A stretch of 39,361 bases of DNA from a virus. The stretch is from positions 5,001 through 44,361 of IMG/VR virus record IMGVR_UViG_3300049489_000302, one strand, 5' to 3'. Positions within the stretch are counted from its first letter, which is position 1. Each line of letters opens with the position of its first letter. Both the position numbers and the translations under genes were made by a program. Positions 1 through 21,519 of the stretch are shown here, piece after piece. The notes under the pieces are model-generated. The model was not told the origin of the DNA and did no database searches. It saw nothing but the letters and a program-made list of their open reading frames with translations.

Positions 1-171
1 GTCCATGCGATCAAGTATTTCAGATATTTTTTTAATGGTCCCGACTTCGCCAGATCCGTTTTTCTCGTCTTGGCGTTCAAAAAACCTTTCCATGGTTTTG
101 CTTGCCAATTGGGCCAAAATTATTCCAAGGGCAATGGCGCCACCAAGGACAGATAAAACCGTTGGTTCCAT
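1..171 (-). CDS. Small membrane protein, 3' end beyond window (holin-like position)
   Basis: Open frame read leftwards from an ATG at 171 that overlaps the stop codon of the tail fiber gene (TGATG, one shared base), so it is probably translationally coupled to it. The 57 visible residues begin MEPTVLSVLGGAIALGIILA, one hydrophobic N-terminal segment (about residues 4-20), followed by a charged helix-like stretch (KTMERFFERQDEK). The gene runs off the left edge, so its full length is unknown. A short protein with one membrane segment just downstream of a tail fiber gene would fit a holin or other lysis accessory protein, but this is inferred from position and topology only; no family motif is seen. 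Confidence 0.6.
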   Translation of the reverse strand, partial: MEPTVLSVLGGAIALGIILAQLASKTMERFFERQDEKNGSGEVGTIKKISEILDRMD

Positions 172-1787
172 CACGACACCTTGATTATATGGAACCCAAC
201 CAAGTCTGAATTCAGCAGTGTTCCAGCCGCATCGTTGTGTGCCCTGATCACATCGCCGGCAGCCAGCCAACAAGTTATCGCTGCGACGGCGTTGTTATTT
301 CCAGCGTTAGTCGCCAAAACCAACCTGTCGGCAGCAGTTATCGAATTTATGGCAATGGTTAATTGAGACGAATTTAAAGAAATCCCCATGTAGGAACCAG
401 TGTTCTCTTGGTCCCAATAACTCATGGCGTAAATGCCAGATTCGTTTATGGTGAAGCTGTCGCCATTGGTGGCTGAAGTGGCGTAAGTAATGGCAGATCC
501 AGTGTTTGTCACAGCGGTTGTGAAAATTCGAATCTTGGTATTAGTAGATCCGTTACCGTTGCCAGTATGAAGCCTCACTTCGCTTCGCTTAGCGTCGGAA
601 ACAATTGAAGCTAAACCAATAATGACCCAATCGGTTCCGTCATAAACCATGGAGACATAATCTCCGGCCTGTATGGTTCCTGTAGGCGGGTCAGCTTTAG
701 CACCAGAGATAACAACCTTGATTGATTTAGCGCCCAAAGCGTTAAGTTCTAGCGTGCAAGCCCCAGTATTGGCAACGTCAGTCTTGAATTGAACATTTAG
801 CCCAGCAAAATAAGCCGCGTATCTTGTTGGGAAAATCTTATAGGCATCTGTTCCTATGGCCGAAGCGGAGTATGTGGCGGTTCGGTTAATAGAAAAAAGA
901 TTTGATGAAATAATAAAATAATCGCCAGAAGCATAATAATAAACCGTGACAATCTGGTTCGTTAATATATCTCCAGCAACCAAAACCTCCATGCTTGAAA
1001 CGCCAACACGCCTGACAGCTTTTGCGCCCAAAGAGTTCACGTCAAGCGTAACCGCACCTGTGTTGTCTGACACGGCCCTAAACGTATATGCGTCACCGTC
1101 TGTGTATGCCGTTGGTGCCGGGGAAACAGTTATGGTAAGGCTGTTGATTCCTGTGGCGGCAGAATATCGTATGCCCTCTGCTCCGAGCGTCGCCCTGGCA
1201 GCTGCTGCGCTTGTGTCGTCAAGAACCGTCTGCATAAACGAAGACGCCGACACGCCAGATGTTGGAACGTTGGAAAGCATTTCAAGATCGCCATTGGCGT
1301 CAAAGCCAAGAACGTATCCAGCCCGCAATGCTTCCGAAGGCAAACGAAGATCGTAGTCTTCTGGATCTTCAGTTTCAGGCAACCTGATTGAACCGTTGGT
1401 TGCTTGTTCGTTTTGCTGCGCCAACATGACAACGCGGTCATAAGCTTCTTCGTGACGCTCTGGCAAAAATGTTGATTGACTGCTGAATTCGTATTCTTGA
1501 ACAAAGGTTAGAACACGCCTTATGGTCAATGCGTAACTGCTTGTTAAGGATCCGCTGGTAAGCCATGCTTGACCGCTGTTAACCAGCGTGATGCTTCCGC
1601 CTGCTTCAATCCCGACACCCGTAACAGTGTAATCGGTTGTTATTACAAGAGTGGTTTCAACGCCAGATGTGTTTCTTACTGTTACGGTAATGTCGTCTTC
1701 GTCAAGAATTTTAAATGTAAAAGAATAGGTGCTTGTGGCGCCATTTCCTGTGTAATCGTTTCTGTTATTTTCATTTGAAATTGACAT
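171..1787 (-). CDS. Tail fiber protein, T7-like N-terminus and C1q-like C-terminus
   Basis: 538 residues. Residues 1-170 resemble the T7 gp17 N-terminal domain that joins the fiber to the tail: a beta-rich start, then LTIRRVL (88-94), the E-rich helix around ERHEEAYDRVVMLAQQ (110-125) and a SIRLP segment. Residues 205-296 and 303-396 are two diverged copies of a module of about 90 residues; both contain a NTGA-[VC]-TL-[DE]-[VL]-N-[SA]-LGAK core and end in a DY/DW-hydrophobic strand. Residues 403-538 look like a C1q/TNF-like jelly roll (RLHTGNGNGSTNTKI, SFTINESGIYAMSYWDQ, AAGDVIRAHND, FHIIKVS end). This last domain is the likely receptor-binding tip, by analogy with other fibers. The gene is last in the tail operon, 19 bases after the giant virion gene. 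The fiber assignment is firm; the C1q-like call is by pattern only. Confidence 0.85.
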   Translation of the reverse strand: MSISNENNRNDYTGNGATSTYSFTFKILDEDDITVTVRNTSGVETTLVITTDYTVTGVGIEAGGSITLVNSGQAWLTSGSLTSSYALTIRRVLTFVQEYEFSSQSTFLPERHEEAYDRVVMLAQQNEQATNGSIRLPETEDPEDYDLRLPSEALRAGYVLGFDANGDLEMLSNVPTSGVSASSFMQTVLDDTSAAAARATLGAEGIRYSAATGINSLTITVSPAPTAYTDGDAYTFRAVSDNTGAVTLDVNSLGAKAVRRVGVSSMEVLVAGDILTNQIVTVYYYASGDYFIISSNLFSINRTATYSASAIGTDAYKIFPTRYAAYFAGLNVQFKTDVANTGACTLELNALGAKSIKVVISGAKADPPTGTIQAGDYVSMVYDGTDWVIIGLASIVSDAKRSEVRLHTGNGNGSTNTKIRIFTTAVTNTGSAITYATSATNGDSFTINESGIYAMSYWDQENTGSYMGISLNSSQLTIAINSITAADRLVLATNAGNNNAVAAITCWLAAGDVIRAHNDAAGTLLNSDLVGFHIIKVS

Positions 1788-1806: not shown

Positions 1807-4800
1807 TTAATCTTGGGTCAAGTAATTGATTGGCCCCGAAAGAGGCCTCAAGGGAACGCCGGACATTAGCCCTAAAAGCGTAAGCAAATCCTTGGTATCT
1901 CTGCCTTTCCAGTCCTTGTCTTCCATGATGGTTTCGTAGACGTTTTTCCCAGTCCTTGCCGAAGACTCGATCATGCTGATAGCAGGAGAGCTGCTTATTT
2001 TATCGTCGTAAGGCGTATCCGTGAAACCGCCTATTGCAACGTTTGCCATCTGACCAACGACAGGAACCATGGCTGTCGCAAGCCTGAATTGAGACCCAAA
2101 AAAAACAGACAGGGCAGCGTCAATCTCGTCTTCATCGTCATCGCCACCGCCTCTTATCCCTCTTGAAATCAATTCGGCCACTACAGCCGGCGCCATAAAC
2201 CCGAGCGTATAGACATAGAGAAGGCGGCCTGCGCCTTTTTTAAGGCCTATGTTCTGAATGGTCTTGGCGAATTCACCGCCAATCAAATTGGCGTTCATGT
2301 TGAAATAACTGTAAAACATGGTGAAGGCACGCATGACAGGCGTTCCCGTTTCAAATCTCGAAAGGTCTTCTGGCGCAAAAGAACCCTGCGTCAATCTTAC
2401 GGCTTCATTGGCAGACCTGACGGCATCGGTTTCGCTATATCCTGATTCAACGGCCTGGTCATAGGCGCCCTGCCATGTGATCGCGTCAACCATGCCTTGC
2501 ATCCCGGCCTGCAAAAAATAGCCATGGCGCTTGGCAAAATTCCTGACATCATCGTATTTCGATGGATTCAAGATCAAGTCTTCGATGGTGTTTTGAACCT
2601 CCATCACGCTTGCAGAAACCCTGTTACGCATGAATTCAGATTTCTCAGACACCTGCGCCGAAACGTCTTTGGGATGCTTCATGTAATTCCAAAGCGAACG
2701 TTTCAAATAAACAGGCTTGACTTTGACAGCGGCCAGCGATAAGCCAGCCACCTGCTGCAACGTGTTTACCACGTTTGCAGCCATAAGCTGAAGGCCGGTT
2801 CTGTTTCTAACTTCTTTAAAGAAGCTATCTATAGCCCTGCCGCCCCATCCCGATGTTGGCGTTGAAACAGTTTGCTGTGCCGCCCTCTGAAGCCATGGAG
2901 TCAGCATGTCGCCGCCTGCCGTGGGATCTACGTTCTGAAGCGCATCCCTGAATTGACGGTCAACAACAATGCGGCCAACGTCCTTAACCGCAGGCTCGAT
3001 GTGCGTGAACCTCAAAACCTTGTCGATGTGAGACGGCAGCAATCTAAGATCCAGCGAAAGCGGCTTGTTGTATCCAGTCACGCGTCCCTTGGTGAATCCT
3101 CGTCCTGTCGTGGGGAACATGTAAGAGTTGTTGGTTTTCTCAAGGCTTTCTTTTTCCTGCCTGATCGCTGCATCAGAAACAAGATATGGGTCAGCGATGG
3201 CAGGAACATAGCCGCCAGTGAACACTCCAAAAGGCGTGACTAATTCCGTGGTCTCGACTTCTTTAAAGTGGTAGCCATACATGTCCTTATGTGCCTTTTG
3301 CGCACCGGGCTTCAGGCTTTCATTTAGGTTCCAAATGGCCTGTGCAAATTCATAGTGGCGCTTCTGCAACACACCTTCGTCTTGCATGCGTTTGATAAAG
3401 CTATCCCACTTGGACGTGTTTAATTCACCCATTTCGTTGATATCGCCCCAGCCGTATCCAAGCAAAAGCTTCTGCAAGTTGCTTCTGTTTCCGTTGTGAA
3501 GCAATGCGTGAAGCAATTCGCCCATGCCTTTAAACTTCGCGCCAATCTCAGGCGCGGCAATTTCCTTGCTTTCTTTCAGGTCGGGCTCAACGGTTTTCAC
3601 GATCTCAAGAAACTTTTCAAGCTTTTCTTTTTTCGCCTCTCGATATTTGTCCACTGATTCCGACACCGGATTCCAGATGTAGCGTTTGAAATCAGGCCCC
3701 ATCTGGTCAGTCCACGATTCAACACGGCGCAAGGCAGCCTTGGCGCCAAGAAAACGCATGCGCCATTTGCCTTGCTCGGCAGCTATTAATTTAAGCCCGT
3801 CTTTTTGCGGCTTGGTCATTTCCGAAAGCACGTTGTTTAGCTCAGAAACAACCTCGTCTTTATCCCTCTTTTTGCCGTCAATGGTCACTTGCCTGCTGCG
3901 CAAAGACAAATCCCAAAGGGCTTCGACGGTCTCGGCCATGTCCTTGAACGTCCCAAACGTGGTGTCTCGGTAATCCTTGGCTTCTCTTGTGCTGGCCTGA
4001 ATCAAGGCCTCAATTTCCTCCGCCATTTCGGCATCGTAAACCCTAAGCTGCTTGATGCTTTCGAAAACAGCGTTTTCGTCTTCAACGGTTCCAAACTTAA
4101 AGCTGGCAAGCACGGCCCTGGCCGCGTTGACAAGATCAATGTCGCGGCGCTTGGCAAGCTTTTCATCGCTCTGAGCCGTCTTCTTGAATTTCTCGATAGC
4201 TTCATCGACGTATTCCTTGGCCTCGGTTGCCTGCCTGTATAGTTCGAAATTCAGTCGTTCCTGATACTTGGCTTCCATGGCTGCGTCGAAATCGCCCTTG
4301 GCAAAGGCAACGCCAGCACGTTTGGCCGCGTTGATTTCATATCGCTTGTAGATGTTGGGCTTCAAGTCACGCAAAGACCTGTGGCCTATGATTTCGGCAG
4401 CTTGAGCCTTAAGGGTTTTGTCGCCAGGCAACCTCCTTGTTACCTGCCGAATGCCTTCTTTGAGAGCGCCTTTCTTTTTGTCTGCCATGAATTCAAACTG
4501 TTTCCTGAGATAAAGCGCCTTCTTATCGTTGTGCAGCGCCTTAACCGCTTCTTCAGGAAGGTTCTCAGAATTCATCAGGTCTGGAAATTCCTGAGACATG
4601 GCGAAATCAAGCCGTGTCTTCACGAATTCCTTCATTGGCGTGGTGTTGGCAAGCTGACGCAACATGTCTTCGCCAGAATCGAATCCAAGCGCCTCGGCCA
4701 CAATGTCAGGGTGAAGGCCATCATCGCTAACAATGCCTCGGGGCAGGTTCTTGCCAACCGTTTCCGCCTTGCTTAGCTTGATAGCCTGCGCCTTTGATCC

Positions 4801-7800
4801 GTCAGGATTCAGTCCATCCTTAAGAATCCCGATGGCCCTGTAAACTGGCATCTGCTTTGCATCGTGTTCAATCTGAATCTGAATCTCAGCCTTCTTGTCC
4901 TTCCATTGCGAGGTAAGTTCACGGTTGTAATCGTTCATCAACCGTGTCCGCAGGTAATCGTCAGCAGCCTGGCGGGCTTCTTCCCTGGCGACAGTGAGTT
5001 CGTCAGGTTCGCCTTCAAGCGGCTCCGTCTGATCCTGCTCGTTTATGTTTTCCTCGGAAGCCAACAGCCTGTCAAACATGTCCGTTACTTCTGGCGTCAG
5101 GGTAACGTCCAGTTTCTTCAGGTCCTTGTAGACCTTGACCAGCCAAACCCTGAACCTGGCAAACACGCCTCGCATGTCCTCGCTAGGCGCGACACCTTCG
5201 GCAAGGTATTTTTCAAATCCTCTTGCAAATTGTTCGTGGTTTTCCCTTGTGAATTTGTCACCGGCGCCAGTCCAATTCTTGACGATCTCAAGTTCCTTGG
5301 CTACCTCGGGGCTTTCCTTTGCCAAGTCGCGCATCACCTCTAAAAAGAAATGCGCCGATTCGTGAATGAAGCTGGATGCGTCAGCATCAGGAAGCATCTG
5401 AATAAGATTTTCGCCGGCGATGAAACGGGCGCGGGCTTTTTGGTTGTTTTTTTGGAATAAGACATCTTTGTTTTCGTTGTAAGCTTTTAGCCTAAGCTTT
5501 CTAACAGCCTTAGCCCTGGCGTCTCCCTCAACGCCTTTGGGGCCAGAATTGGGTTTATATTTCAATACCTGTATTCCGTGCTTTTCCAAGATATCAAGGG
5601 TTTCTTTGTCTGTTTTTTCAGGGACAACAGCGCCAAAAAACTCACCAAGCCCAACGGAACGTTGAGGTTTTGATTCAAAATAAGAAACAGGCGAATTCAT
5701 TAAATCAGCAGCAGCCTCGATGGCAAAAGAAACTAGTTTATTTGAAACCGAAAAATATTCATCAGCAAGCGCCTTTCTCATGTTGGCTTCGTTTCTTGAT
5801 CCTTTTAGCCATTTTTGAATTGAACGCATAGAGGCATCCAATGCGTCAAAACCAGAATCACCTTTAAACATCTTCATGGCTTCTTCGTGATATGCGTCCA
5901 TCGAAGCCTTGGCCTTGATTCGATGCTGCTCTATCTCTTTTTCGTTGACAATATTTTCGGAAGCCAATTCCCTCATCTCATCTAAGCTTTCAAATTTCTC
6001 TGCTGCCGTAGCGGCGGTTTTTCCAACTCCCTCCACCATGCCTTTTTCTTGTCCTTTAACTTTACCTGACATGCTTTTTACAATATTTCCAAGCGCGTAA
6101 GGAACCTTTTTGCCGCCAAGCGTAATGAACGGGTCGCCATGAAGCGACATTATTTTGTCTTTAAGCCATTCCTTAAACTCAGCCTCAAGACCAGACATGG
6201 CTTTATTTATGGATTTCTTTGTGGCCTTCTCGTTGATCTCTAAAGTTCCTAGTCTTGCCGCCCCTCTTTTGAGGCCATAAATTTTTCCAAAATAAATAAG
6301 CCCGTCTTCATCAACCATACTTTCGATCATCGTTCTTTCCAGGTCTTCCGCAAGAACAGGATCTTTAGTTTCGGATTTAGACCAACGTTTAACAGCGGAA
6401 ACAAATTCTTCTGCAAGTTTTTTCCTTGAATCGGTGTCGTCGTAGTCCGCATCAGCGTATTTCTCTACAGCTTCAGCTAATTTTTTATCCATGGTTCCGT
6501 GAACCACAGCCTTCTTTTTTATAGGCTCAACCTTGATCCCTTTGGTCTCTAAAAAAGCAGCTTTCGAACTGTTTAAATCAATCAATCGCCTTATGGCATT
6601 TTCCGGATTGGCTTTGTTTACGGATTCATCAAAAGCATCAGAAAAATAAGTTGATTCTTCAAATTTTTTAGATACTTCTCTGAATTCAGAAAAAACCTTA
6701 TCTGCTTCTTTGTAATTTGCTTTTTTATATTCTGCCTTGGGGAATCTAGGCGAGTAAGCGTCTCTATCAAAAACAGGGTTTTTTTCAGGATCAGCAAGGT
6801 CCTTGCCACCAATTAAAGTAATTTCTCCAAACCCTGTTGGCGAATCAATGTTTTCAGGTATAACGGAAATGGAAGGAACAGCGAGACCGCCCATCTTATC
6901 TGCAAACTTAAGATTGTCGGCAGACAGGTTGTGTAATGCTGATAACTTGTGGCTTTCCTTTTTTTCTTCTGGTGCTGACTGAAAAAATATATCACCAATG
7001 GCCTTGATAGCCCTCCCCACAATCCCTAAACCTTCCCCTCCGCGATCAGTTGACGCATCACTTCCAGATGTTTCCTGTCGCTTTCTTCCTCCGTCATCTG
7101 AGGCGACCACACCTGTATTCCCGCTATCGATACCCCTGTCACTGTCAGGGATTCTGGCGGAACCCTTTTCACGAATTCGTCTAAGGATTCCCCTTTCGTT
7201 TCTTTCTTCGGCAAGATTTTCTTTGCCAGTTTTGAGATTGTTTTCAGCTGTTCCATCTGAGCCCCCTATGCCAGCGCCAAAGGTGATTCCTGATAATACA
7301 TAGTCTACATTAGATGTTGAGGAAAAGTCAACATCGGTCATTAGGCAAAATTTCTCAAGCTTTTCTGAAAATTCCTTTATTTTGTTGAAGTCTTCAGACT
7401 GCGCCAGGTATTCATCCCCAGACTTATGGGTAAACGAAAAATCCTGTCCATATATTTCAATCAAGGCTTTGACTTTTTTATCAAAGCCTTTCAAGAGCAT
7501 ATCCCCTGCACCCTTGCCAAACTTCTTATTCAAGATTCCAAGGCCATTCAAATCCAACGTCATTCTTGCTGCCTTGACCGGCAGAAGCTTGTAAGCCTCG
7601 TAGGTCAAAAACCCGCTTTGCGGATCCCTTGAAAAGCCTTCTTTGGCCTCGGCATCATTTAATTTAGAATAGGCGCTTTCAAGCTCTGCCGTGATTTCGG
7701 CAGGCGTGAAACTAATCTCAGATGCCTTATCTCCTTCTTTATACCCCTTGGGCCTGCGTGCCTCCTGATCGGCGTCTTCGGTGCCAGCCTTGTTTGCCCT

Positions 7801-10659
7801 TGGGTCAGCCCTGCGGCCTTCGGCAATGGCCTTGCTTTTAGCAGCCGTCTCTACCTTGGCCGCCTGCTCAAGACTTTCGCCAACAGAACCGGTGATCTCA
7901 AAAGAAGACGAATCCAGAACCTTGCCGCCAACGCTTATATATTCGGGCAGCGTTTTCTTGACATTGGCTAAAAGCTGGTCAATCTCAGCCTGATCTTTAA
8001 CATGGATGGCAAAATCGCCACCGACTTTGGCAATACCTGGGTCAATGGCCTTGATGGCCTGGCCCACAATGCGGTAAAGATCATCGCCAGCATCGTGAGA
8101 AATATTGTCGTTTACATATTTGATCCCTTCGACAGAGACCAACGCCACATTAGGCTTGCCTTCTGGCGCCGCCATGGCATCCCATGCCCTGCGGTTCATG
8201 GTTCCAGTTACGGGGTCAACAAAGTAATTCTGCTTCTTTTTGGTATCGCTAAACCCATTCCAGATTTCGTCAACCAATTCCTGCGTAGGCCTTGCCTTGA
8301 TTGGCCCTTGTTCCAAGGCACGCCGCATCTTGGCGTATTTATTCTTCCCGTATTTGCTTACAAAATTCGTGATGCTTTTGGCCTCAGATACAGCCCTGTC
8401 AAAAAGCTCGGTCTCGGAGGCTTCCTTAAGCACGCCAGATTCTTTAAGTTTTTCAATAGCTCTGGCAACAGTGTTGCTGCCATTTTTCTTAAATATCCCG
8501 TAATACTTCATGTCGTTAAATTCGCCAGCTTTGCCGGTTTCCTTAATGCTATCTAAAGAAAGGCCGCCAATGTCGCGCAACGCGTCAAGCACAGGCGTTA
8601 ATCCACCGGTTTCAGCCATAGCCGCAAGCTTGGCGTCTGTTTCCGCCTCGGCCCGAAGCTCGTTTACCTCTTCTTGCGTCAGGCCACTTTCGTCTTTCTC
8701 GATTAAATCGGCTGTTTCTTCTGGCGCCAAAACAAAGTCTTCGTCAATTTCTTTTTCAATCTTATTCAGTTCTTCCTGCGAAACCTTTTCGATCCTGGCC
8801 TTATATCTGTCGTAAAGTTCTGTTGCATCCACGCCAGATTTACGGGACATGGTTCTAAAAAAGTTTTCCCATATCTTAGCGTTGGTTGAGGCTTGCTTTG
8901 AATCTTGACCAATGTTTTCAAGTTGAGTTTGAATATCAAAGCCAACGTCCTTGGCCGTGTCGCGCTTGGATTCCTTGGTTTCTTTCAGTGCGCTTGCAGG
9001 CGTGACCAGGCTAAGCTCAGCGCCAATCTGCTTGACCTGATTCGTTGTGTAGTTCTCGGGATCAAACTTCACATCGTCGGCAAGGGCCTTGAAATGATCG
9101 CCTGACTTGGCAACCCATTCGCCCATAGGAATTTCTACGTTTTCAAGACCGTTTTCTTTGGCAAGATTATAGGCCTCTAAAACACCGGCTTCCTTCATGG
9201 CTGCTATGTTGATGCCTTCGGTCTGCATGGCAGGCGCGCCAGGCATGGCTTCAGCGCCTTCGGTTTCCTGTTCATTGGCGCTCTGGAAATAGCTCTCCAT
9301 GGCATCGACAGGTATGTAAACCTTTTCCATGCCGCTGTCTTTAAGCACTTCTTCATTGAGCAAAGCCTGCTTTTCAGGTGAACGTTCTTTTAGCTTGCCG
9401 CCATCGACAGAAGCGCCAAATTCAAGATAAGAATTCTTGGAGTTTTCTGCACTGCGTTCAATGACAGGCAGCATTCTTTTCTGGTTCGAAGCCTTGGCGT
9501 ATCCGCTTGCCGCAGAAATAGGGGCTGTCTGGACACCGCCAGCGAATGCGCCGGCCAACGAAGCCTTGGCAACGTTTTCCCAAAAACCTTCAAGGCTGTC
9601 TGTTACGCCAGTAACGTAGTCGCTCAACTGCTGCGTAATCTCAGTAAGGCCTTCTTCGATTCCCTCGACCACCACCGAATGCAGCATCGAATTGAAAAAT
9701 TCCTTAAAAACCTTCGTGGAAAACTCTTTGCCATACTGCTTGGCGATCTGTTTTTCCCAGTGCTTCAAAATGCCCATGCTTCCGACACGCTCAAACAAGG
9801 CCTCGGCGCTGCCTTGAACCAAGGCGTTCGTGGCAGCGCTACCAGGGTCAAGGCCAGTCTCGGTGCTTTTGGCCTCTACTTGTCCTGCGGTTCCAGATCC
9901 GACGCCAGCCATGGCAACGGTTCCAGCCCCGGTCGCGGCTCCAACAAGCAACGCCGCGCTTGTCGGCGCGTTCTGAAGAAAACCATGCCACAGGAATTGA
10001 CCATAGTTTCCTTCGTTCCATGCGTTGTCGATGTTGGGCGAAAATTCCTGACCAAGCTTTGCCTGTTCGTTGTAATAATCAGTGACAGGGTTCTTTAAAA
10101 CCTGACTTGCAGAAACACCCATCCATTCAAGGCCGTCAATCTTGGCAAGCTGATTCTGAGGCCATGCCGCAGCCGTATAGATGCCTGCTGGTATATTAGC
10201 CAGCAAGGCATTCATATTCGCAAACCCTGCAACAGTAGACCTGTAGAATCCGTTTACGGTTCCGTATTTCTTAACCGCCTTCTCGGCCTTGACCGTCGCA
10301 TCCAGGTCATCCCTGACAAGGGCCATGTTATTCTTGTCTTCAAGAAACGCCGCAGTCTTTGGCGTATCCCTGATCATGGAATCCCAATCGGTTCCTTCGG
10401 TCATGCTCTTGCGTTTGATCACGTCAAAATTACGGCGCGTCAAATCAACGCCAATGCCAAGCTCAGCGGCTATCTGCTGGACCTTGACATCCGCGTCAGG
10501 CTCAATGCCCATGGCGGCATACATCGACTGAGACAAAACAGATTTTTTAGAGTCGTTGGAGTCTAAGGTAGAGGCAAATTCTGAAAACTCATTCACTGTT
10601 TTCTGAGGCGGACCGTAATCCTTAACGCTATCAGCGAATTCAAGAAATTCGTTTGGCAT
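1807..10659 (-). CDS. Giant polyvalent internal virion protein with twin GGDEF-like domains and zincin motif
   Basis: 2,950 residues, in the position of T7 gp16, so probably packed in the virion and ejected into the host. No lytic transglycosylase motif was found. Seen in order: an N-terminal helical region with hydrophobic patches (about 150-165, 230-255); a segment at 446-552 (VYIPVDAMESYF... IPMGEWVAKSGDHFKALADDVKFDP) of a type common in giant phage polyvalent proteins; a first GGDEF-like domain at about 810-925 (DPVTGTMNRRAW 815-826, YVND, HDAGDD, GGDFA 880-884); a second at about 1008-1150 (DPQSG, LDLNG, GAGD, SGDEY 1080-1084); a linker; a zincin-like motif HESAH 1766-1770 followed by EQFARGFEKYLAEG 1809-1822; long charged helices; and a conserved-looking C-terminus (2600-2950) with TPVMRAFTMFYSYFN and a hydrophobic helix at 2811-2833, resembling the C-terminal domain (LPD38-type, from memory) of such proteins. 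ATG at 10659 follows AGGCGG. Confidence 0.88.
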   Translation of the reverse strand: MPNEFLEFADSVKDYGPPQKTVNEFSEFASTLDSNDSKKSVLSQSMYAAMGIEPDADVKVQQIAAELGIGVDLTRRNFDVIKRKSMTEGTDWDSMIRDTPKTAAFLEDKNNMALVRDDLDATVKAEKAVKKYGTVNGFYRSTVAGFANMNALLANIPAGIYTAAAWPQNQLAKIDGLEWMGVSASQVLKNPVTDYYNEQAKLGQEFSPNIDNAWNEGNYGQFLWHGFLQNAPTSAALLVGAATGAGTVAMAGVGSGTAGQVEAKSTETGLDPGSAATNALVQGSAEALFERVGSMGILKHWEKQIAKQYGKEFSTKVFKEFFNSMLHSVVVEGIEEGLTEITQQLSDYVTGVTDSLEGFWENVAKASLAGAFAGGVQTAPISAASGYAKASNQKRMLPVIERSAENSKNSYLEFGASVDGGKLKERSPEKQALLNEEVLKDSGMEKVYIPVDAMESYFQSANEQETEGAEAMPGAPAMQTEGINIAAMKEAGVLEAYNLAKENGLENVEIPMGEWVAKSGDHFKALADDVKFDPENYTTNQVKQIGAELSLVTPASALKETKESKRDTAKDVGFDIQTQLENIGQDSKQASTNAKIWENFFRTMSRKSGVDATELYDRYKARIEKVSQEELNKIEKEIDEDFVLAPEETADLIEKDESGLTQEEVNELRAEAETDAKLAAMAETGGLTPVLDALRDIGGLSLDSIKETGKAGEFNDMKYYGIFKKNGSNTVARAIEKLKESGVLKEASETELFDRAVSEAKSITNFVSKYGKNKYAKMRRALEQGPIKARPTQELVDEIWNGFSDTKKKQNYFVDPVTGTMNRRAWDAMAAPEGKPNVALVSVEGIKYVNDNISHDAGDDLYRIVGQAIKAIDPGIAKVGGDFAIHVKDQAEIDQLLANVKKTLPEYISVGGKVLDSSSFEITGSVGESLEQAAKVETAAKSKAIAEGRRADPRANKAGTEDADQEARRPKGYKEGDKASEISFTPAEITAELESAYSKLNDAEAKEGFSRDPQSGFLTYEAYKLLPVKAARMTLDLNGLGILNKKFGKGAGDMLLKGFDKKVKALIEIYGQDFSFTHKSGDEYLAQSEDFNKIKEFSEKLEKFCLMTDVDFSSTSNVDYVLSGITFGAGIGGSDGTAENNLKTGKENLAEERNERGILRRIREKGSARIPDSDRGIDSGNTGVVASDDGGRKRQETSGSDASTDRGGEGLGIVGRAIKAIGDIFFQSAPEEKKESHKLSALHNLSADNLKFADKMGGLAVPSISVIPENIDSPTGFGEITLIGGKDLADPEKNPVFDRDAYSPRFPKAEYKKANYKEADKVFSEFREVSKKFEESTYFSDAFDESVNKANPENAIRRLIDLNSSKAAFLETKGIKVEPIKKKAVVHGTMDKKLAEAVEKYADADYDDTDSRKKLAEEFVSAVKRWSKSETKDPVLAEDLERTMIESMVDEDGLIYFGKIYGLKRGAARLGTLEINEKATKKSINKAMSGLEAEFKEWLKDKIMSLHGDPFITLGGKKVPYALGNIVKSMSGKVKGQEKGMVEGVGKTAATAAEKFESLDEMRELASENIVNEKEIEQHRIKAKASMDAYHEEAMKMFKGDSGFDALDASMRSIQKWLKGSRNEANMRKALADEYFSVSNKLVSFAIEAAADLMNSPVSYFESKPQRSVGLGEFFGAVVPEKTDKETLDILEKHGIQVLKYKPNSGPKGVEGDARAKAVRKLRLKAYNENKDVLFQKNNQKARARFIAGENLIQMLPDADASSFIHESAHFFLEVMRDLAKESPEVAKELEIVKNWTGAGDKFTRENHEQFARGFEKYLAEGVAPSEDMRGVFARFRVWLVKVYKDLKKLDVTLTPEVTDMFDRLLASEENINEQDQTEPLEGEPDELTVAREEARQAADDYLRTRLMNDYNRELTSQWKDKKAEIQIQIEHDAKQMPVYRAIGILKDGLNPDGSKAQAIKLSKAETVGKNLPRGIVSDDGLHPDIVAEALGFDSGEDMLRQLANTTPMKEFVKTRLDFAMSQEFPDLMNSENLPEEAVKALHNDKKALYLRKQFEFMADKKKGALKEGIRQVTRRLPGDKTLKAQAAEIIGHRSLRDLKPNIYKRYEINAAKRAGVAFAKGDFDAAMEAKYQERLNFELYRQATEAKEYVDEAIEKFKKTAQSDEKLAKRRDIDLVNAARAVLASFKFGTVEDENAVFESIKQLRVYDAEMAEEIEALIQASTREAKDYRDTTFGTFKDMAETVEALWDLSLRSRQVTIDGKKRDKDEVVSELNNVLSEMTKPQKDGLKLIAAEQGKWRMRFLGAKAALRRVESWTDQMGPDFKRYIWNPVSESVDKYREAKKEKLEKFLEIVKTVEPDLKESKEIAAPEIGAKFKGMGELLHALLHNGNRSNLQKLLLGYGWGDINEMGELNTSKWDSFIKRMQDEGVLQKRHYEFAQAIWNLNESLKPGAQKAHKDMYGYHFKEVETTELVTPFGVFTGGYVPAIADPYLVSDAAIRQEKESLEKTNNSYMFPTTGRGFTKGRVTGYNKPLSLDLRLLPSHIDKVLRFTHIEPAVKDVGRIVVDRQFRDALQNVDPTAGGDMLTPWLQRAAQQTVSTPTSGWGGRAIDSFFKEVRNRTGLQLMAANVVNTLQQVAGLSLAAVKVKPVYLKRSLWNYMKHPKDVSAQVSEKSEFMRNRVSASVMEVQNTIEDLILNPSKYDDVRNFAKRHGYFLQAGMQGMVDAITWQGAYDQAVESGYSETDAVRSANEAVRLTQGSFAPEDLSRFETGTPVMRAFTMFYSYFNMNANLIGGEFAKTIQNIGLKKGAGRLLYVYTLGFMAPAVVAELISRGIRGGGDDDEDEIDAALSVFFGSQFRLATAMVPVVGQMANVAIGGFTDTPYDDKISSSPAISMIESSARTGKNVYETIMEDKDWKGRDTKDLLTLLGLMSGVPLRPLSGPINYLTQD

Positions 10660-10667
10660 CTTGCCGC

Positions 10668-12341
10668 CTAATAAATGGTTGACTTCGTTTTTGCTTTTTG
10701 AGCCCTCTGATACTCAGAGTAAAGCCTTATGATATTCTGCTCGGTTGGCTTCTTGCCAGAAGCCTCAAGGGCCTCTGCTATTTTCTTTCTTGTGGCCCTG
10801 TCAACGTCGAGTTCAAAAACCTGACCAGGCTTGACCTGAAAAAGCCTTCTGTCTCGACCAAAGCTTATTTCGCCTTGAATCAAAAGCTCGTCAGAAAACT
10901 TTCTAATATCTTCCTGAGAAGCTTTATTCCCAGTCTCGGCCTGATGGCGCCTTACCATTTCATCTATTTTCGAATGAAACAACGTGGCATCAGGTGAATT
11001 TGGCTTTATCTTAACTTCCTCCAAGGCACCGTTGACAATCTGCCTGTCTGTAAGGTAGCCATCAAGCTTCTCTTTCGTCCTGCGGTCTTGGTTTCTCAGG
11101 CCCTGTTGAATCTCGTCAAGCTCTTTGCGCTCGGCGTTGGCAAGCTTGTCCGAATATTTCCCAAGCTGCTGTTTCAGGAATTCGTTAGGTTTCTCGGCAG
11201 CAAGGGCCTTCAGTGAATAATAGGTGTCAACGTCGGTGTTGACCACGGCGCCGCTTTCTACCTGCTTTCGCCTGCGTTCAAGCGACTTGTTTTCTTCTGT
11301 CGTGAGCGTCGAGGACATACTCAAAGGCACAGGCTTACCTGATTCGACATATCGCTGCGCCTCGTTGAAAACAGACGCATGTTTCTGATAGTCGATTTCC
11401 TTGCGCTCTTTATAAATCCGATCCACATAACCAGCCGTTCTGCCGGTATCGTCTTTATCTTTGGCAAAGTCATAGGCCTCGCCTTGGCGTTCTTCGCCAA
11501 ATTTAAGCACTATTTCTTCGGCGTTCTGCTTCGCCCTAAAGTCCACCTCGGCGTGATTAAGGGTTTTAGAAAGCCTCGTTTCCCCATCTTCATTGCGCCT
11601 TTGAATTATCTCTTTAATATTTTTGTCATAGTAATACCTGGCTTCCTTTACGCGTCCAGAATCAATCAAAGCGTCCACAGCCGCGATGTGGTTATCTGAT
11701 ACAGCATTTTCAGTCGCAGACTTAACCCATTCAGGCCCTTTGCCAAGCGATTCACCTATTTTAACTATGGTCTGCTCTATGGATTTTCTGTTCTCAGCGG
11801 CCTTATATGGATTCTTCCTTGTGTCGTCAATTCGCGTGGCTGTTCCGTTTATGCCAACCTGCTCTGTGTACGCTGCCGCTTCCCTGGCATGGTGCTTCTC
11901 AAGCTTATCCTGAAGCTCAAGTCTGTCATTCGCCCAAACGCGCTTAAGCATATTGCGTTGATCGTTGTCAGCCAATGCTTTTGAACGAGCTTCATAAGAT
12001 TTGTCAAAAGACTTTAAAGACAAATTAACGAAATCGCTATCAACCGCGCTTTTGCCTTTGTAAAGCTCGGCCTCTGAGTATATTTTGTTTTTTTCGGTGG
12101 TTAAATAAGAAGCCTCGTCCATAACCCTTAATTCATCTGCATCACGTTTGGCCTTGATTTCGGCCTTTTTCACTTCGGATCCAAACGCACTCACGGCGTC
12201 ACCAATTGCCGCCCTCGATTGCGTCAAGCGCTCTAGCGAGGCCCCGCCTCCAAAAGCGGCCAATGGCGCATCAGTTGAAACCATTTGCCCATCTATGGGC
12301 CTGGTCTCAACTTGACTTTCGTATGTAGGGACTTTAGGCAT
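10668..12341 (-). CDS. Internal virion protein (T7 gp15-like position), coiled coil
   Basis: 557 residues, mostly charged alpha-helix with long predicted coiled coils (for example DRLELQDKLEKHHAREAAAY at 135-154). It begins MPKVPTYESQVETRP, a short N-terminal signature seen in internal or ejection proteins of many podoviruses. It lies between a small gp14-like protein and the giant virion protein, the same order as the core genes 14-15-16 of T7. It probably forms part of the inner core or the periplasmic ejection tube. The start overlaps the stop of the upstream gene (TAATG). No enzymatic motif is visible. The role is inferred from gene order and composition; sequence similarity to T7 gp15 itself is not evident by eye. 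Confidence 0.75.
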   Translation of the reverse strand: MPKVPTYESQVETRPIDGQMVSTDAPLAAFGGGASLERLTQSRAAIGDAVSAFGSEVKKAEIKAKRDADELRVMDEASYLTTEKNKIYSEAELYKGKSAVDSDFVNLSLKSFDKSYEARSKALADNDQRNMLKRVWANDRLELQDKLEKHHAREAAAYTEQVGINGTATRIDDTRKNPYKAAENRKSIEQTIVKIGESLGKGPEWVKSATENAVSDNHIAAVDALIDSGRVKEARYYYDKNIKEIIQRRNEDGETRLSKTLNHAEVDFRAKQNAEEIVLKFGEERQGEAYDFAKDKDDTGRTAGYVDRIYKERKEIDYQKHASVFNEAQRYVESGKPVPLSMSSTLTTEENKSLERRRKQVESGAVVNTDVDTYYSLKALAAEKPNEFLKQQLGKYSDKLANAERKELDEIQQGLRNQDRRTKEKLDGYLTDRQIVNGALEEVKIKPNSPDATLFHSKIDEMVRRHQAETGNKASQEDIRKFSDELLIQGEISFGRDRRLFQVKPGQVFELDVDRATRKKIAEALEASGKKPTEQNIIRLYSEYQRAQKAKTKSTIY

Positions 12342-12877
12342 TAGATTGCCACAAATTTAGCAACGGAACCAATAACCGAAGTGATAGCTTGGTTATTTGC
12401 AGCCTGCTCTGTGTTGTATGAATCTGAACGCGAACGCTTAAAGGCAAGATCCGCACGCTGCCTTAGATCATGGGCCTGCGTCTTAAAGCCCCAAGCCTGA
12501 CGCCACGCATTGCTGCGAATGGTAGACGCATCAGCGGCAACGGCCGCTGCTGTGTCTTCCTGAACCTTAAGGGCAGAACCTTTATTAAGGGCCGTCCCAC
12601 CCATGGCTATAGCTACACGTTGGCGCCCTTCAAGTTTTTTGGCCTTGCCTAAAAATTTAATCCTGTTTTCTTCGCCTATATTAAAAGCGTCTCGGGCCTG
12701 GGTATCTGCGACTTCAGCGTTAAACCAAAAACGACTGCGCTCGTAATCGCCCTGATCCCTAATGGCGTTTGCCTGCTTATAACCGCCTTCTAAATTAGAG
12801 ACAATACTAAGCAAGCTGCCAAAAGCCTCAAGCCCTTCGCCATATTTTTGTTTCCCGGTTTTTTCTTGATCTGCCAT
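12341..12877 (-). CDS. Internal virion protein (T7 gp14-like position)
   Basis: 178 residues from the ATG at 12877. The frame extends two codons further to a TTG at 12883, but an AGGGG lies six bases before the ATG and abuts the TTG, so the ATG is preferred; it lies just after the TGA of the tail tubular B gene. The protein is Ala-, Gln- and Arg-rich and helical. It has a Gly-rich central segment (RVAIAMGGTALNKGSALKVQ) and repeated heptad-like stretches (AWGFKTQAHDLRQRADLAFKR), a composition typical of gp14-like internal virion proteins that help form the ejection channel. The C-terminus ends in a hydrophobic TSVIGSVAKFVAI. Confidence 0.72.
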   Translation of the reverse strand: MADQEKTGKQKYGEGLEAFGSLLSIVSNLEGGYKQANAIRDQGDYERSRFWFNAEVADTQARDAFNIGEENRIKFLGKAKKLEGRQRVAIAMGGTALNKGSALKVQEDTAAAVAADASTIRSNAWRQAWGFKTQAHDLRQRADLAFKRSRSDSYNTEQAANNQAITSVIGSVAKFVAI

Positions 12878-12879
12878 CC

Positions 12880-15723
12880 TCAACCCCTGAAAGGCAAGAA
12901 GCCAACAGACGTGATCGACAATATCGAAGCTGGCACAGGATCTTTAATCCTGATAAAAACCCTGCCGTGCTGGTTCCATGTTGCTTCTATATTAACCTCT
13001 TGGACGCCAGTTTCCAAGTCTGTTGGTTCTCCGTAATCCTCGAAATCACGTTGTTTTACCTCGTTTAAAGTATCCGACGAGCTGACGCCGGCCCAAACGC
13101 CCCGCGTATTTTCGACTTGGACAAAAACCTTTCCAATGTTTTTGTGTTTATCCGATATAGTTTCAGTCTGCGAAGAATCAATATCAAGCGTCTCCAAATC
13201 AGACGTATACCCGAGCCCAGCGTGAATCTTTACGTATGGATCGGACATCGTAACTGATCCGCTTGAAACGGTTTCTGTTTCGTATGTCGAATTATTTGGA
13301 GTTGCCACAACATTGCCGTCAGCAAATATCGCTATATTTTCGCCCTCAAGATGCCAAAGTCCGCTTATGGTTTTAACAGCCTTGCTCCACGTAGAAACAG
13401 CAGTTGACCTAAGAGACGTTGGAACCGTATTATGCGCGGTTCCTGTCACTACGGTAGAGCTTGAATAAGTCCTGATTGTAAACCTGATCGTGTTTCCGCT
13501 TGAATCCGAAATGTGGATTTGGTTATCAATGTCTGTTGATACAAACGTTGTCTGAGTAAATCCAGCCCCATCGACAAATGTTCCGGCGCTTGCCGTCAAG
13601 GTCAGGGATTCGCCATTTGTCCAAGCGGTTCCACCAGAAAGCGTCATGGTCACGGCGCCAGCATTTTCTCCGTTATAGCTCAACGAAGAATCTACAAAAA
13701 CAACATCGGTCACATCGGTAAAGTCACGATTATGAAAACGCTCAATGTAGCGCCTGGTGGATCCGTCTATCGTTCTGTTAACAACCGCGTAAAGCTTGTC
13801 TTCGGTGGATTCAGGGACAACGCAAACATTTTCAAACAGACCTTCAGTTTCGTGACGATGCCAGGCAAAAACCTGTTGCTCCGGAACATACGTCAGGCCC
13901 AAAAGCGCTCCATCGCTTCTGACAACCCAAATAATACTGTCTGGGTTCTGTTGATACGCCATGTCAACAAGGGTGTAATCCCTAAAAAGATGCGAAGAAG
14001 GGATGGTGAGATCGGCGCCTCTGTAACCGTTTTCATCAATTTTAAACGCTATGTCCCTTAAAATCTGGCCTCTGGACTGGACAAAAACAACACGTCCTCC
14101 TATAACAACAGGTCTTACGCTGTCTGATCCATAGCTAGTTTGAGTTCTTGAATTAACCGCCGTTGGCGTCAGGGCTCCCGAGTCGTCGCCGTTTACGATC
14201 ACCTCGTTACCTGTGGTCATAAGCAGCAAACGCTCAAGCTCAACCACGTGGACGATTTCGTTCACCTTCCGACCAGCCAAAGTAAAATCAACAGAATCGT
14301 CGTCTTGGGTTTCCTTGCTAACTCCAAAATTAGTCAAAAACCCAGTCCGAGACGCGAACACCCTTTCTGGTTCGTTGTCGGTATTGGCGTAAATGGCTCG
14401 CTGCTGATAAAACCCGACAGCAGATGGATATTCGCCTTCTCCGGTAAATATGTCTACGGTCTCAGGTGGATTTTCAGATGTGTCAATCGAAGTTGCGTTA
14501 TCGTTGTGCGTAATTGTTTTGCTAACCCCAACCAGGCCAAATATTCCGCCTCCGTTGTCTTCCCTGTAAATATTGTATTCCTTGGCGTTGGTCGCTGCCG
14601 TCCAAGTCAACGTGTGAGGATCGGCAACCGTTGGCGCAGCAGCGGCAGACGCTATAACATAGGGCTTGGCAAGCGTTCCGCCAGCAGAAAAAACCCCGAA
14701 ATCTGTTGAATTAAGATTGAGCAATTCAAAAGTATTAGCGCCAGTGTTTACGTTGGCAACAGTAAACGTGCGACCGTTTACTTCTGTCATTCCAGTAACG
14801 CCTGTTATGTAAACTTCGGCGCCGTTGGCGTAACTGTCGGCGCCAGCGTAAGTAAGGACAGCTGGGTTTGCGTTGGTTATGCCGGTAATGGCCTGCGTAG
14901 CCTCAAGTCCGGCGAAGCTTTCTTCGCCTGTATCCTCGTCTATGGCCGTAACTTTATATCTGTATGTATTTGCCCCGCCCGTAACAGAAGACACGGCAAG
15001 GTTGGTTGGCCTGGAAATCGTTGGCGTAAAAGAAGTTGCAGCTAAAGTCCATGTCGTATGCCCAGTCCTCGAAAGCGTCCTTGGAGCATAAGACGGATGA
15101 ACTATATAAATAACATCGCCAGATTGAGAGTAATTTAGTTCTGAAAGATCAGCCTCAAGATAAGGGGTCGTGATTGTATAAACACGCTTTGCTGTCCCGC
15201 CAGAGGAATAGGCCGTGTAATTCGAAGAATCGATGTTTACGCTATCCATGTCTTGTAATTCAAACGTATTGGCGCCAGCGTTGACATTAGCTATTTTAAA
15301 ATTCCTACCATTAACCTGGGACATTCCAAAAACATCTGATATGTAAACTTCTTCTCCGTTAGATGGGTCTGTTCCCGTATAGGTCAACACGGCAGGGCTT
15401 GCCTGAGTTATTCCGGTTATCGTCAAGGTAAGGTCAAACTGTTGTTCGCCTTCCCTTATAACGCGCATGTAAAGATCGCCAAATTCCAAAATGTAAGTTT
15501 GCGTATTGTTAAAAACAAACTCAATAAGCCTGACGGCCTTGGTTGAATCTTTTACTTCGCAAACAAACTGAGACCCAGGCCTGTTTTGAACACCGCCTGG
15601 ACGCATGACTATGAAATTTTTACAGGTCCGCAGGGCCGTGGAATACAGGGCGGTATCAACCCTTCCGTAAAGAGAAGGGGCTATTTCGCCCTTTGAAAAA
15701 GACCTCTGAATAAATGACGTCAT
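12880..15723 (-). CDS. Tail tubular protein B (T7 gp12-like nozzle)
   Basis: 947 residues. The N-terminus (SFSKGEIAPSLYGRVDTALY, then LRTCKNFIVMRPGGVQNRPG at 31-50 and an FVF/YILEFGDLYMRV strand pair) is diagnostic of the podovirus nozzle protein that closes the tail tip and carries the fibers. It is longer than T7 gp12 (about 794 residues), and the excess can be explained by inserted beta modules. Residues about 102-178 and 279-355 are two copies of an FCCH-like module (motifs I-T-x-A-[SN]-PAVLTY, NG-x-EVYI, GM-[ST]-[QE]-VNGR, ANVN-x-GANTFEL). The second is flanked by fibronectin-like strands (NLAVSSVTGGANTYRYKVTA; LTWTAATNAKEYNIYRED). The start overlaps the stop of tail tubular A (TAATG). 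Confidence 0.92.
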   Translation of the reverse strand: MTSFIQRSFSKGEIAPSLYGRVDTALYSTALRTCKNFIVMRPGGVQNRPGSQFVCEVKDSTKAVRLIEFVFNNTQTYILEFGDLYMRVIREGEQQFDLTLTITGITQASPAVLTYTGTDPSNGEEVYISDVFGMSQVNGRNFKIANVNAGANTFELQDMDSVNIDSSNYTAYSSGGTAKRVYTITTPYLEADLSELNYSQSGDVIYIVHPSYAPRTLSRTGHTTWTLAATSFTPTISRPTNLAVSSVTGGANTYRYKVTAIDEDTGEESFAGLEATQAITGITNANPAVLTYAGADSYANGAEVYITGVTGMTEVNGRTFTVANVNTGANTFELLNLNSTDFGVFSAGGTLAKPYVIASAAAAPTVADPHTLTWTAATNAKEYNIYREDNGGGIFGLVGVSKTITHNDNATSIDTSENPPETVDIFTGEGEYPSAVGFYQQRAIYANTDNEPERVFASRTGFLTNFGVSKETQDDDSVDFTLAGRKVNEIVHVVELERLLLMTTGNEVIVNGDDSGALTPTAVNSRTQTSYGSDSVRPVVIGGRVVFVQSRGQILRDIAFKIDENGYRGADLTIPSSHLFRDYTLVDMAYQQNPDSIIWVVRSDGALLGLTYVPEQQVFAWHRHETEGLFENVCVVPESTEDKLYAVVNRTIDGSTRRYIERFHNRDFTDVTDVVFVDSSLSYNGENAGAVTMTLSGGTAWTNGESLTLTASAGTFVDGAGFTQTTFVSTDIDNQIHISDSSGNTIRFTIRTYSSSTVVTGTAHNTVPTSLRSTAVSTWSKAVKTISGLWHLEGENIAIFADGNVVATPNNSTYETETVSSGSVTMSDPYVKIHAGLGYTSDLETLDIDSSQTETISDKHKNIGKVFVQVENTRGVWAGVSSSDTLNEVKQRDFEDYGEPTDLETGVQEVNIEATWNQHGRVFIRIKDPVPASILSITSVGFLPFRG

Positions 15724-20883: not shown

Positions 20884-21519
20884 CTATTTTGTGTTGAACA
20901 TGGTCTGAGCCATAGCGGCGTCTGTTCCCGCTGCGGGAGAGGTAGCGCCTGGCGTGCGACCATGAACCAAAGTGTCTTCCCCCATAGCGGATGCTATGCG
21001 GGCCATAATTCCAAACATGGCCTTGTGATTTCCAAGACCAGACGAACCGAGCAATTGAACAAAGCTACCATCGGTATCAAACCTTTTGATCAGCCTGTTC
21101 GAAAGCTCGACGTTCTTTTTCAGATTTTCACCGCCAAGGACCGGATCAGCCTGAATTTCAGCGACCCATTCCTTAGCCTGTTTTTCCTGAGCCAGCCTTT
21201 CTTTTGCTTCAGATTCAGCCAGCCACTTATTCTGAAAATCCACCAAAGCCTGAGCCTTCTCCTCGGGCAATCCATGAGCCTTCGCAAAGGTCTCAATCTC
21301 GCCCAATGAAGTCGCCTCTAAGATGGCGTTTTCCGGAAGCTTTAATTCGTATTTAATTTCAGCGCTGTTTCCGCCACCAAGCAGCGTTTTGCCATCCGCA
21401 GGGGATGGAGGCGGAGTGGCGGACGCCGCAGGAGGTGGCGTTCCGCCAGCAGGAGGCGCAGGAGGCGGAGGGGTAGCCCCGCCAGCAGGGGGAGACGTAG
21501 CAACGATTGGTTCTGTCAT
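20884..21519 (-). CDS. Capsid scaffold protein
   Basis: 211 residues. The first 42 are a low-complexity Pro/Ala/Gly segment (PPAGGATPPPPAPP...). Then comes KYELKLPENAILEA, a helical charged region (EIETFAKAHGLPEEKAQALVDFQNKWLAESEAKE) with high coiled-coil potential, EWVAEIQADPVLGGENLKKN, and LLGSSGLGNHKAMFGIMARIASAMGEDTLV at 157-186. This L-G-x-x-G-LGNH pattern is recurrent in scaffold proteins of phages with this capsid type. It lies directly upstream of the capsid gene. It should direct prohead assembly and leave during packaging. The ATG overlaps the stop of the preceding gene (ATGA). Confidence 0.82.
   Translation of the reverse strand: MTEPIVATSPPAGGATPPPPAPPAGGTPPPAASATPPPSPADGKTLLGGGNSAEIKYELKLPENAILEATSLGEIETFAKAHGLPEEKAQALVDFQNKWLAESEAKERLAQEKQAKEWVAEIQADPVLGGENLKKNVELSNRLIKRFDTDGSFVQLLGSSGLGNHKAMFGIMARIASAMGEDTLVHGRTPGATSPAAGTDAAMAQTMFNTK

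Follow-up and report, generated by a model that had tools for sequence, protein, structure and literature searches.

The window analysed here, i.e. the whole stretch of 39,361 nucleotides (positions 5,001 to 44,361 of the IMG/VR virus record IMGVR_UViG_3300049489_000302), encodes a giant phage protein that carries two GGDEF domains in tandem. That both domains, termed D1 and D2 below, are GGDEF domains is practically certain. Judged by its active-site residues D1 is catalytically dead, and D2 appears largely intact. The pairing of a dead with a largely intact GGDEF domain in a gp16-type protein is new here. The best explanation as a whole is that of a polyvalent ejection protein which would deliver D2 as a cyclase cargo, with D1 as a non-catalytic partner; we hold it at slightly less than an even chance.

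Architecture of the giant protein

The features of the giant gene are listed below (coordinates are those of the window, residues those of the protein).

1807-10659, minus strand: giant polyvalent protein ORF, 2950 aa, in the gp16 (ejection protein) position
10261-10527, minus strand: LPD22 (large polyvalent protein associated domain 22), residues 45-133; Pfam E 7e-13
8551-9456, minus strand: N-terminal block shared with relatives, residues 402-703; blastp to Carin1 gp32, L005, ctQRb9 and L148
7732-8268, minus strand: GGDEF domain 1 (D1), residues 798-976, apparently catalytically degenerate; profile, TIGR00254, Foldseek
7153-7683, minus strand: GGDEF domain 2 (D2), residues 993-1169, catalytic residues largely kept; profile, phrog_14602, AlphaFold2
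6361-6975, minus strand: PBECR5 nuclease-like domain, residues 1229-1433; Pfam E 7.9e-28
5350-5364, minus strand: HESAH, zincin-like metallopeptidase motif (HExxH), residues 1766-1770
1816-5442, minus strand: conserved C-terminal block, residues 1740-2948 (zincin and virion-protein body); phrog_9880, 1021.9 bits; nearest relatives 36-50% identical

With LPD22, two GGDEF domains, PBECR5 and an HExxH motif in one phage polypeptide, this is a polyvalent protein. LPD22 is common to nearly all scanned relatives of the giant protein, and the His, Glu and His of the HESAH motif are invariant in the respective alignment (A2). No EAL or HD-GYP partner was found within the giant protein. The GC content varies along the gene: the conserved ends have about 0.51, the GGDEF pair has 0.47, and the stretch from PBECR5 through residue 1740 has 0.39-0.42. 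PBECR5, which directly follows the GGDEF pair, is markedly below the conserved ends (GC 0.39, GC3 0.32), and residues 1440-1740 are also low. The low GC between the conserved ends fits the expectation for exchanged cargo.

Gene neighbourhood

The gene order is terminase, portal, protease, capsid, tail tube (phrog_394), gp12-like, gp14-like, gp15-like, giant gene and fibre, which is the order of a T7-like or BPP-1-like podophage. The neighbours of the giant gene are the following.

12880-15723, minus strand: gp12-like tail (nozzle) protein; phrog_376, 5e-207
12341-12883, minus strand: gp14-like internal virion protein; phrog_418, 1.5e-17; Pfam T7_gp14 0.0023, under the cut-off
10668-12341, minus strand: gene in the gp15 position; phrog endolysin families
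171-1787, minus strand: tail fibre or spike with a shared N-terminus; phrog_1640, 3.5e-32

The initial annotation had described the product as a giant ejected virion protein. The virion-type part of this description agrees with the gp16 position after the gp11-, gp12-, gp14- and gp15-like genes. A giant gene occupies the corresponding position in BPP-1, Carin1 and Ab9, and the C-terminal body of the giant protein is 24-42% identical to phage homologues, including Bbp10 (BPP-1) and gp32 (Cobetia phage Carin1), and 35-50% identical to 81 IMG/VR loci. By its position after the gp12/gp14/gp15-like genes and by podophage homology the giant gene is assigned to the gp16 type. A profile of the C-terminus matched no ejection protein of solved structure. 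T7 and PhiM1 have a tetrameric gp16-type ejection protein, and ejection proteins form a tetramer and an octamer (PMC11440229). By analogy with this tetrameric counterpart, the giant protein is likely to be injected with the phage DNA.

Two side observations concern the neighbouring genes. In the gp12-like tail protein two stretches match Pfam E1_FCCH (1.2e-13), with the best match at residues 122-181. The protein exceeds the length of the phrog_376 profile by about 240 residues, which suggests an inserted domain. Moreover, a protease-type gene (20887-21519, phrog_458) adjoins the major capsid gene; it is related to phrog_30010 as well, a family that the gp12-like protein also matches.

Identity of the two domains

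Two GGDEF-like domains had been proposed from their motifs, and the motif positions proved exact in both copies: DPVTG 815-819, YVND 848-851, HDAGDD 855-860 and GGDFA 880-884 in D1, and DPQSG 1012-1016, LDLNG 1035-1039, GAGD 1050-1053 and SGDEY 1080-1084 in D2. The interval originally given for the pair, 7209-8232, does correspond to residues of about 810-1150; the real domain envelopes are slightly wider (798-976 and 993-1169).

Curated models recognize D1 only weakly and D2 barely. For D1, Pfam GGDEF (PF00990) covers residues 814-872 with an E of 5.7e-4 and 20.1 bits, under the cut-off of 23.8, TIGR00254 gives 1.1e-5, and a phmmer search of PDB sequences returns diguanylate cyclases (2.8e-4). 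On D2 alone Pfam GGDEF reaches only an E of 0.13, i.e. from curated models alone D2 would be unproven as a GGDEF domain.

A profile of phage GGDEF domains was built from the 60 loci of an IMG/VR scan, which had been seeded with D1 aligned with three YuA/CN2-type phage proteins; the window domains were left out of the profile. It matches D1 at residues 804-968 (86.8 bits, i-E 2e-24) and D2 at residues 996-1150 (51.7 bits, i-E 1.2e-13). The maxima among composition-matched shuffles (2000 per region) were 8.8 bits for D1 and 10.7 bits for D2, and unrelated tiles of the giant protein gave at most 6.1 bits. Independence is not complete for the score of D1, because the profile members were collected by similarity to this domain; D2 played no part in that search. 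The independent PHROGs profile phrog_14602 matches D1 and also D2 alone (E 2.6e-5). In a joint alignment of 57 domains that includes D2 (A6), all 57 match phrog_14602 and 56 match PF00990 at an E of 0.01 or below, the best at 5e-19.

Structure prediction points in the same direction. The AlphaFold2 model of D2, computed with alignment A6 (pLDDT 92.7, pTM 0.86), has the GGDEF fold: it superimposes on DgcR (6zxb) with a Z of 16.8 and an rmsd of 1.6 A over 137 residues, and its other best structural neighbours are a Marinobacter diguanylate cyclase, SadC and PleD (Z 16.2). Without an alignment the whole tandem was modelled poorly (pLDDT 40); for the D1 part of this low-confidence single-sequence model (pLDDT about 60-72) the top 50 Foldseek matches were all GGDEF. 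Profile search and structure prediction, both among the checks proposed in the initial annotation, gave GGDEF matches for both regions and a predicted cyclase fold for D2, and we consider the tandem claim confirmed by the profile scores of both domains together with the predicted D2 fold.

A recent internal duplication was considered and rejected: D1 and D2 are only 22% identical over 89 residues (28 bits). Each of them is closer to the domains of two other IMG/VR phages, L139 or L148 (40-47 bits), than to the other.

Active sites

The active-site elements of the two domains are located as follows.

8107-8118, minus strand: D1 YVND, guanine-contacting Asn850 kept
8008-8022, minus strand: D1 GGDFA, signature hairpin without the Glu codon
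7543-7557, minus strand: D2 LDLNG, metal Asp1036
7408-7422, minus strand: D2 SGDEY, signature hairpin (Asp1082, Glu1083)

D1 retains Lys847, Asn850, Asp859 and Asp882. Ser842 stands where the metal Asp would be, eight residues upstream of YVND, and an in-frame deletion of one codon has removed the Glu of GGDEF (GGD-FA); the loss of the catalytic Glu and of the metal Asp in the first copy was therefore read correctly from the start. In other words, the acidic set of active diguanylate cyclases (the metal Asp and the GG(D/E)EF pair) is incomplete in D1, which is predicted to be catalytically dead.

D2 retains the metal, guanine and catalytic positions, namely Asp1036, Asn1044, Asp1053, Asp1082, Glu1083 and the C-terminal Lys1146. 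The earlier reading that D2 keeps the Asp1036 of LDLN and GDE stands; the accompanying statement that only the first Gly is changed (to Ser) does not, since the actual lesion is at the Lys equivalent to PleD K332, which is replaced by Gly1041. All 60 phage and all 28 bacterial relatives have this Lys. The PleD numbering serves for orientation; the positions themselves were counted on the alignments. The Ser of SGDEY is not decay because Ser is the usual first signature residue in the phage GGDEF family (45/60, i.e. SGDE is the norm). SGDEF enzymes can be active and make c-di-GMP, examples being ECA3270 (cited in PMC3974145) and MbaA (PMC8079147).

An RxxD inhibitory site is absent upstream of both hairpins (KAIDPGIAKV-GGDFA in D1, YGQDFSFTHK-SGDEY in D2), which argues against c-di-GMP sensing via the I-site. 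From these residues c-di-GMP synthesis by D2 is plausible, and we put the chance that D2 is catalytic at a shade below even.

The phage GGDEF family

About 50 of the 60 GGDEF-encoding loci of the IMG/VR scan have the domain in ORFs of more than 600 aa, and 10 are genes of only 158-298 aa that stand alone. GGDEF-bearing phage ORFs of more than 1000 aa number 49 and reach 5621 aa; one of them is a second tandem. All 60 domains have the metal Asp, the Lys, the Asn, the Glu and the C-terminal Lys, and 54/60 have the Asp of GD; judged by this conservation, the family seems to be catalytic overall. The I-site is almost never present (L098-L157). The distance from DPxTG to the metal Asp is 27 residues in D1 and 24 in D2, and the phage quartiles are 24-25; in bacteria it is 31-40 residues, corresponding to a longer first helix. 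Both window domains fit the phage profile about 40 bits better than the bacterial one (92.3 vs 52.2 bits for D1, 61.3 vs 20.7 for D2); the genome scan behind the bacterial set returned mostly ordinary Clostridia cyclases, and 28 bacterial sequences were compared.

Of 50 records of GGDEF giants, 5 have a gp12-like tail gene, L148 among them. Other GGDEF giants pair the domain with LPD5, RadC, a strawberry-notch-type helicase or a sub-cut-off LPD22. Single-sequence searches of the viral collection with the D1-D2 pair and tblastn of D2 alone against phages gave no match, and a scan that started from D2 together with three YuA-type proteins gave no confirmed relative. A Tritonibacter plasmid match to D2 was discarded, as it sits in an ordinary 685-aa ORF of the GGDEF-enzyme type.

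An exchangeable cargo slot

In the relatives of the giant protein, the region between the N-terminal block (402-703) and the conserved C-terminus is an exchangeable slot with the following cargo.

L005 (C-terminus 50% identical; L005:6683-13786): ART-PolyVal and zeta-toxin-like kinase
ctQRb9 and DC33: ART
zth2-2: ART and DUF7178
Ab9: GNAT and PBECR5
Carin1: PBECR5
BPP-1: PBECR1
L016 and L018: weak GNAT matches

The GGDEF pair is not conserved in related giant proteins, a point that the initial annotation had suggested checking: PF00990 was found in 0/86 records of gp16-like relatives (7 first relatives and 79 further ones), and the orthologue L148 has a single copy. Because the Carin1 homologue is without the GGDEF block, these domains are dispensable for the giant-protein family in general. 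L148 (IMGVR_UViG_3300037424_000238) is 22% identical to the giant protein over residues 402-924 and scores 413 bits over 1727-2947. It shares the N-terminal block, a GGDEF domain in the slot and the C-terminal block, and its contig has a gp12-like tail gene; in contrast to the window, its single GGDEF domain has every catalytic residue intact and blastp finds no match in the PBECR5 region.

Comparison with known systems

GGDEF domains in polyvalent proteins were reported in 2017, so the kind as such is already known. The part of Iyer et al. 2017 (PMC5512222) considered here describes giant phage proteins in which GGDEF occurs together with zincin, ART or nuclease-like domains, includes LPD22 and PBECR among the listed domains, discusses zincin processing, and proposes injection and cyclic-nucleotide interference with host responses for the GGDEF proteins. 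That same part of the survey calls GGDEF in polyvalent proteins 'not very widespread', with one named example, the Acetonema longum prophage, whereas our scan suggests that GGDEF is common in giant phage ORFs; tandem pairs, pairs of a dead and an intact domain, and gp16-type ejection proteins do not come up in it. Also new here is the outline of the phage GGDEF family (SGDEF as the norm, a short first helix, an I-site almost never present) and the evidence of its commonness.

The best annotated phage matches to D1 are stand-alone proteins of the YuA gp44 type (Yuavirus, Vojvodinavirus; about 28-36% identity), annotated as a diguanylate-cyclase domain. They share the short first helix and the S/A/G-GDEF motif with the window domains but are single-domain genes of about 155-160 aa distant from virion genes. 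As a side observation, stand-alone GGDEF genes of about 155 aa in these genera (L003:5968-6435, L008:1986-2441, L097:1438-1905) lie near exonuclease, antirestriction or SprT genes. L139 (IMGVR_UViG_3300007896_000003) likewise has two GGDEF domains (L139:8062-9471) in one polyvalent protein of 3447 aa; unlike the window protein it has GGDE in both copies, an ART, LPD1, LPD5 and LPD38 architecture, and no gp12-like tail match. Bacterial diguanylate cyclases (PleD, DgcR, SadC) share with D2 the predicted fold (Z about 16) and most active-site positions, but have the longer first helix and define a profile that both window domains fit distinctly worse.

Proposed mechanism and alternatives

Most likely D2 works as a diguanylate cyclase co-delivered with the DNA, or did so until recently, and D1 is its non-catalytic partner. 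The conserved N-terminus and a C-terminal virion body of about 1200 residues with the zincin motif flank a cargo slot, which in the present phage holds two GGDEF domains and then the PBECR5 nuclease-like domain. As in T7 and PhiM1, the giant protein may be oligomeric when it enters the cell together with the DNA, so that D2 copies of adjacent subunits could pair and turn GTP into c-di-GMP early in infection. D1 would act as a nucleotide-binding or docking partner, which zincin processing, as suggested for other phages, might release. The expected outcome would be disturbed host second-messenger signalling or nucleotide-based defence. Given the lost Lys of D2 and the strong divergence of both domains, activity may be lost in the present phage. 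In the tree of GGDEF domains the window domains have very long end branches (3.3 and 5.7) without a supported placement, and these branches together with the lost Lys keep both non-catalytic and decay explanations alive.

The strongest alternative is that both domains are non-catalytic and form a nucleotide-binding or docking pair for GTP, c-di-GMP or a host GGDEF protein, i.e. a decoy, sponge or adaptor. We consider this a real possibility, if clearly short of probable. It agrees with the apparent death of D1, with the missing Lys of D2 and with the guanine-contacting Asn and Asp present in both domains, and degenerate GGDEF domains with non-catalytic roles have been described (PMC3974145). 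However, neither domain has the RxxD site, the wider phage family is catalytically intact, and D2, despite strong divergence, has kept all its metal and catalytic acids, for which pure binding would have no need. An unlikely explanation is decaying cargo, i.e. a formerly acquired GGDEF pair that now is structural filler between the conserved ends and has no nucleotide function. Here the long branches, the fast turnover of the slot in relatives and the sub-cut-off Pfam scores of both domains are set against an intact ORF with no frameshift or stop, the confidently predicted fold of D2 and its retained catalytic acids. Still less likely is a variant in which a dead, nucleotide-binding D1 and a competent D2 would pair within one molecule, yielding pppGpG only, or c-di-GMP upon ejectosome assembly, as an early-infection signal or as a decoy against nucleotide-based immunity. 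Finally, another palm-type polymerase domain (mCpol or Cas10-like) is very improbable, and the polymerase-like fold offered as an alternative by the initial annotation is unnecessary: the palm fold is common to both and 1/57 family members weakly matches Pfam mCpol (0.0077), but the other evidence, i.e. the near-universal GGDEF matches in the family, the DPxTG, N-D and GD motifs and the listed structural neighbours, which are GGDEF proteins, is against it.

Significance

Should phages indeed inject diguanylate cyclases, a central second messenger of bacteria would be hit before any phage gene expression, and this would be a new contact point between infection and biofilm formation, motility and nucleotide-based defence. 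Intact single-domain members such as L148 make the idea of an injected cyclase directly testable. The survey, with 49 giant ORFs carrying a largely intact GGDEF domain and 10 stand-alone genes, suggests that what in 2017 was an idea about a few cases concerns many phages.
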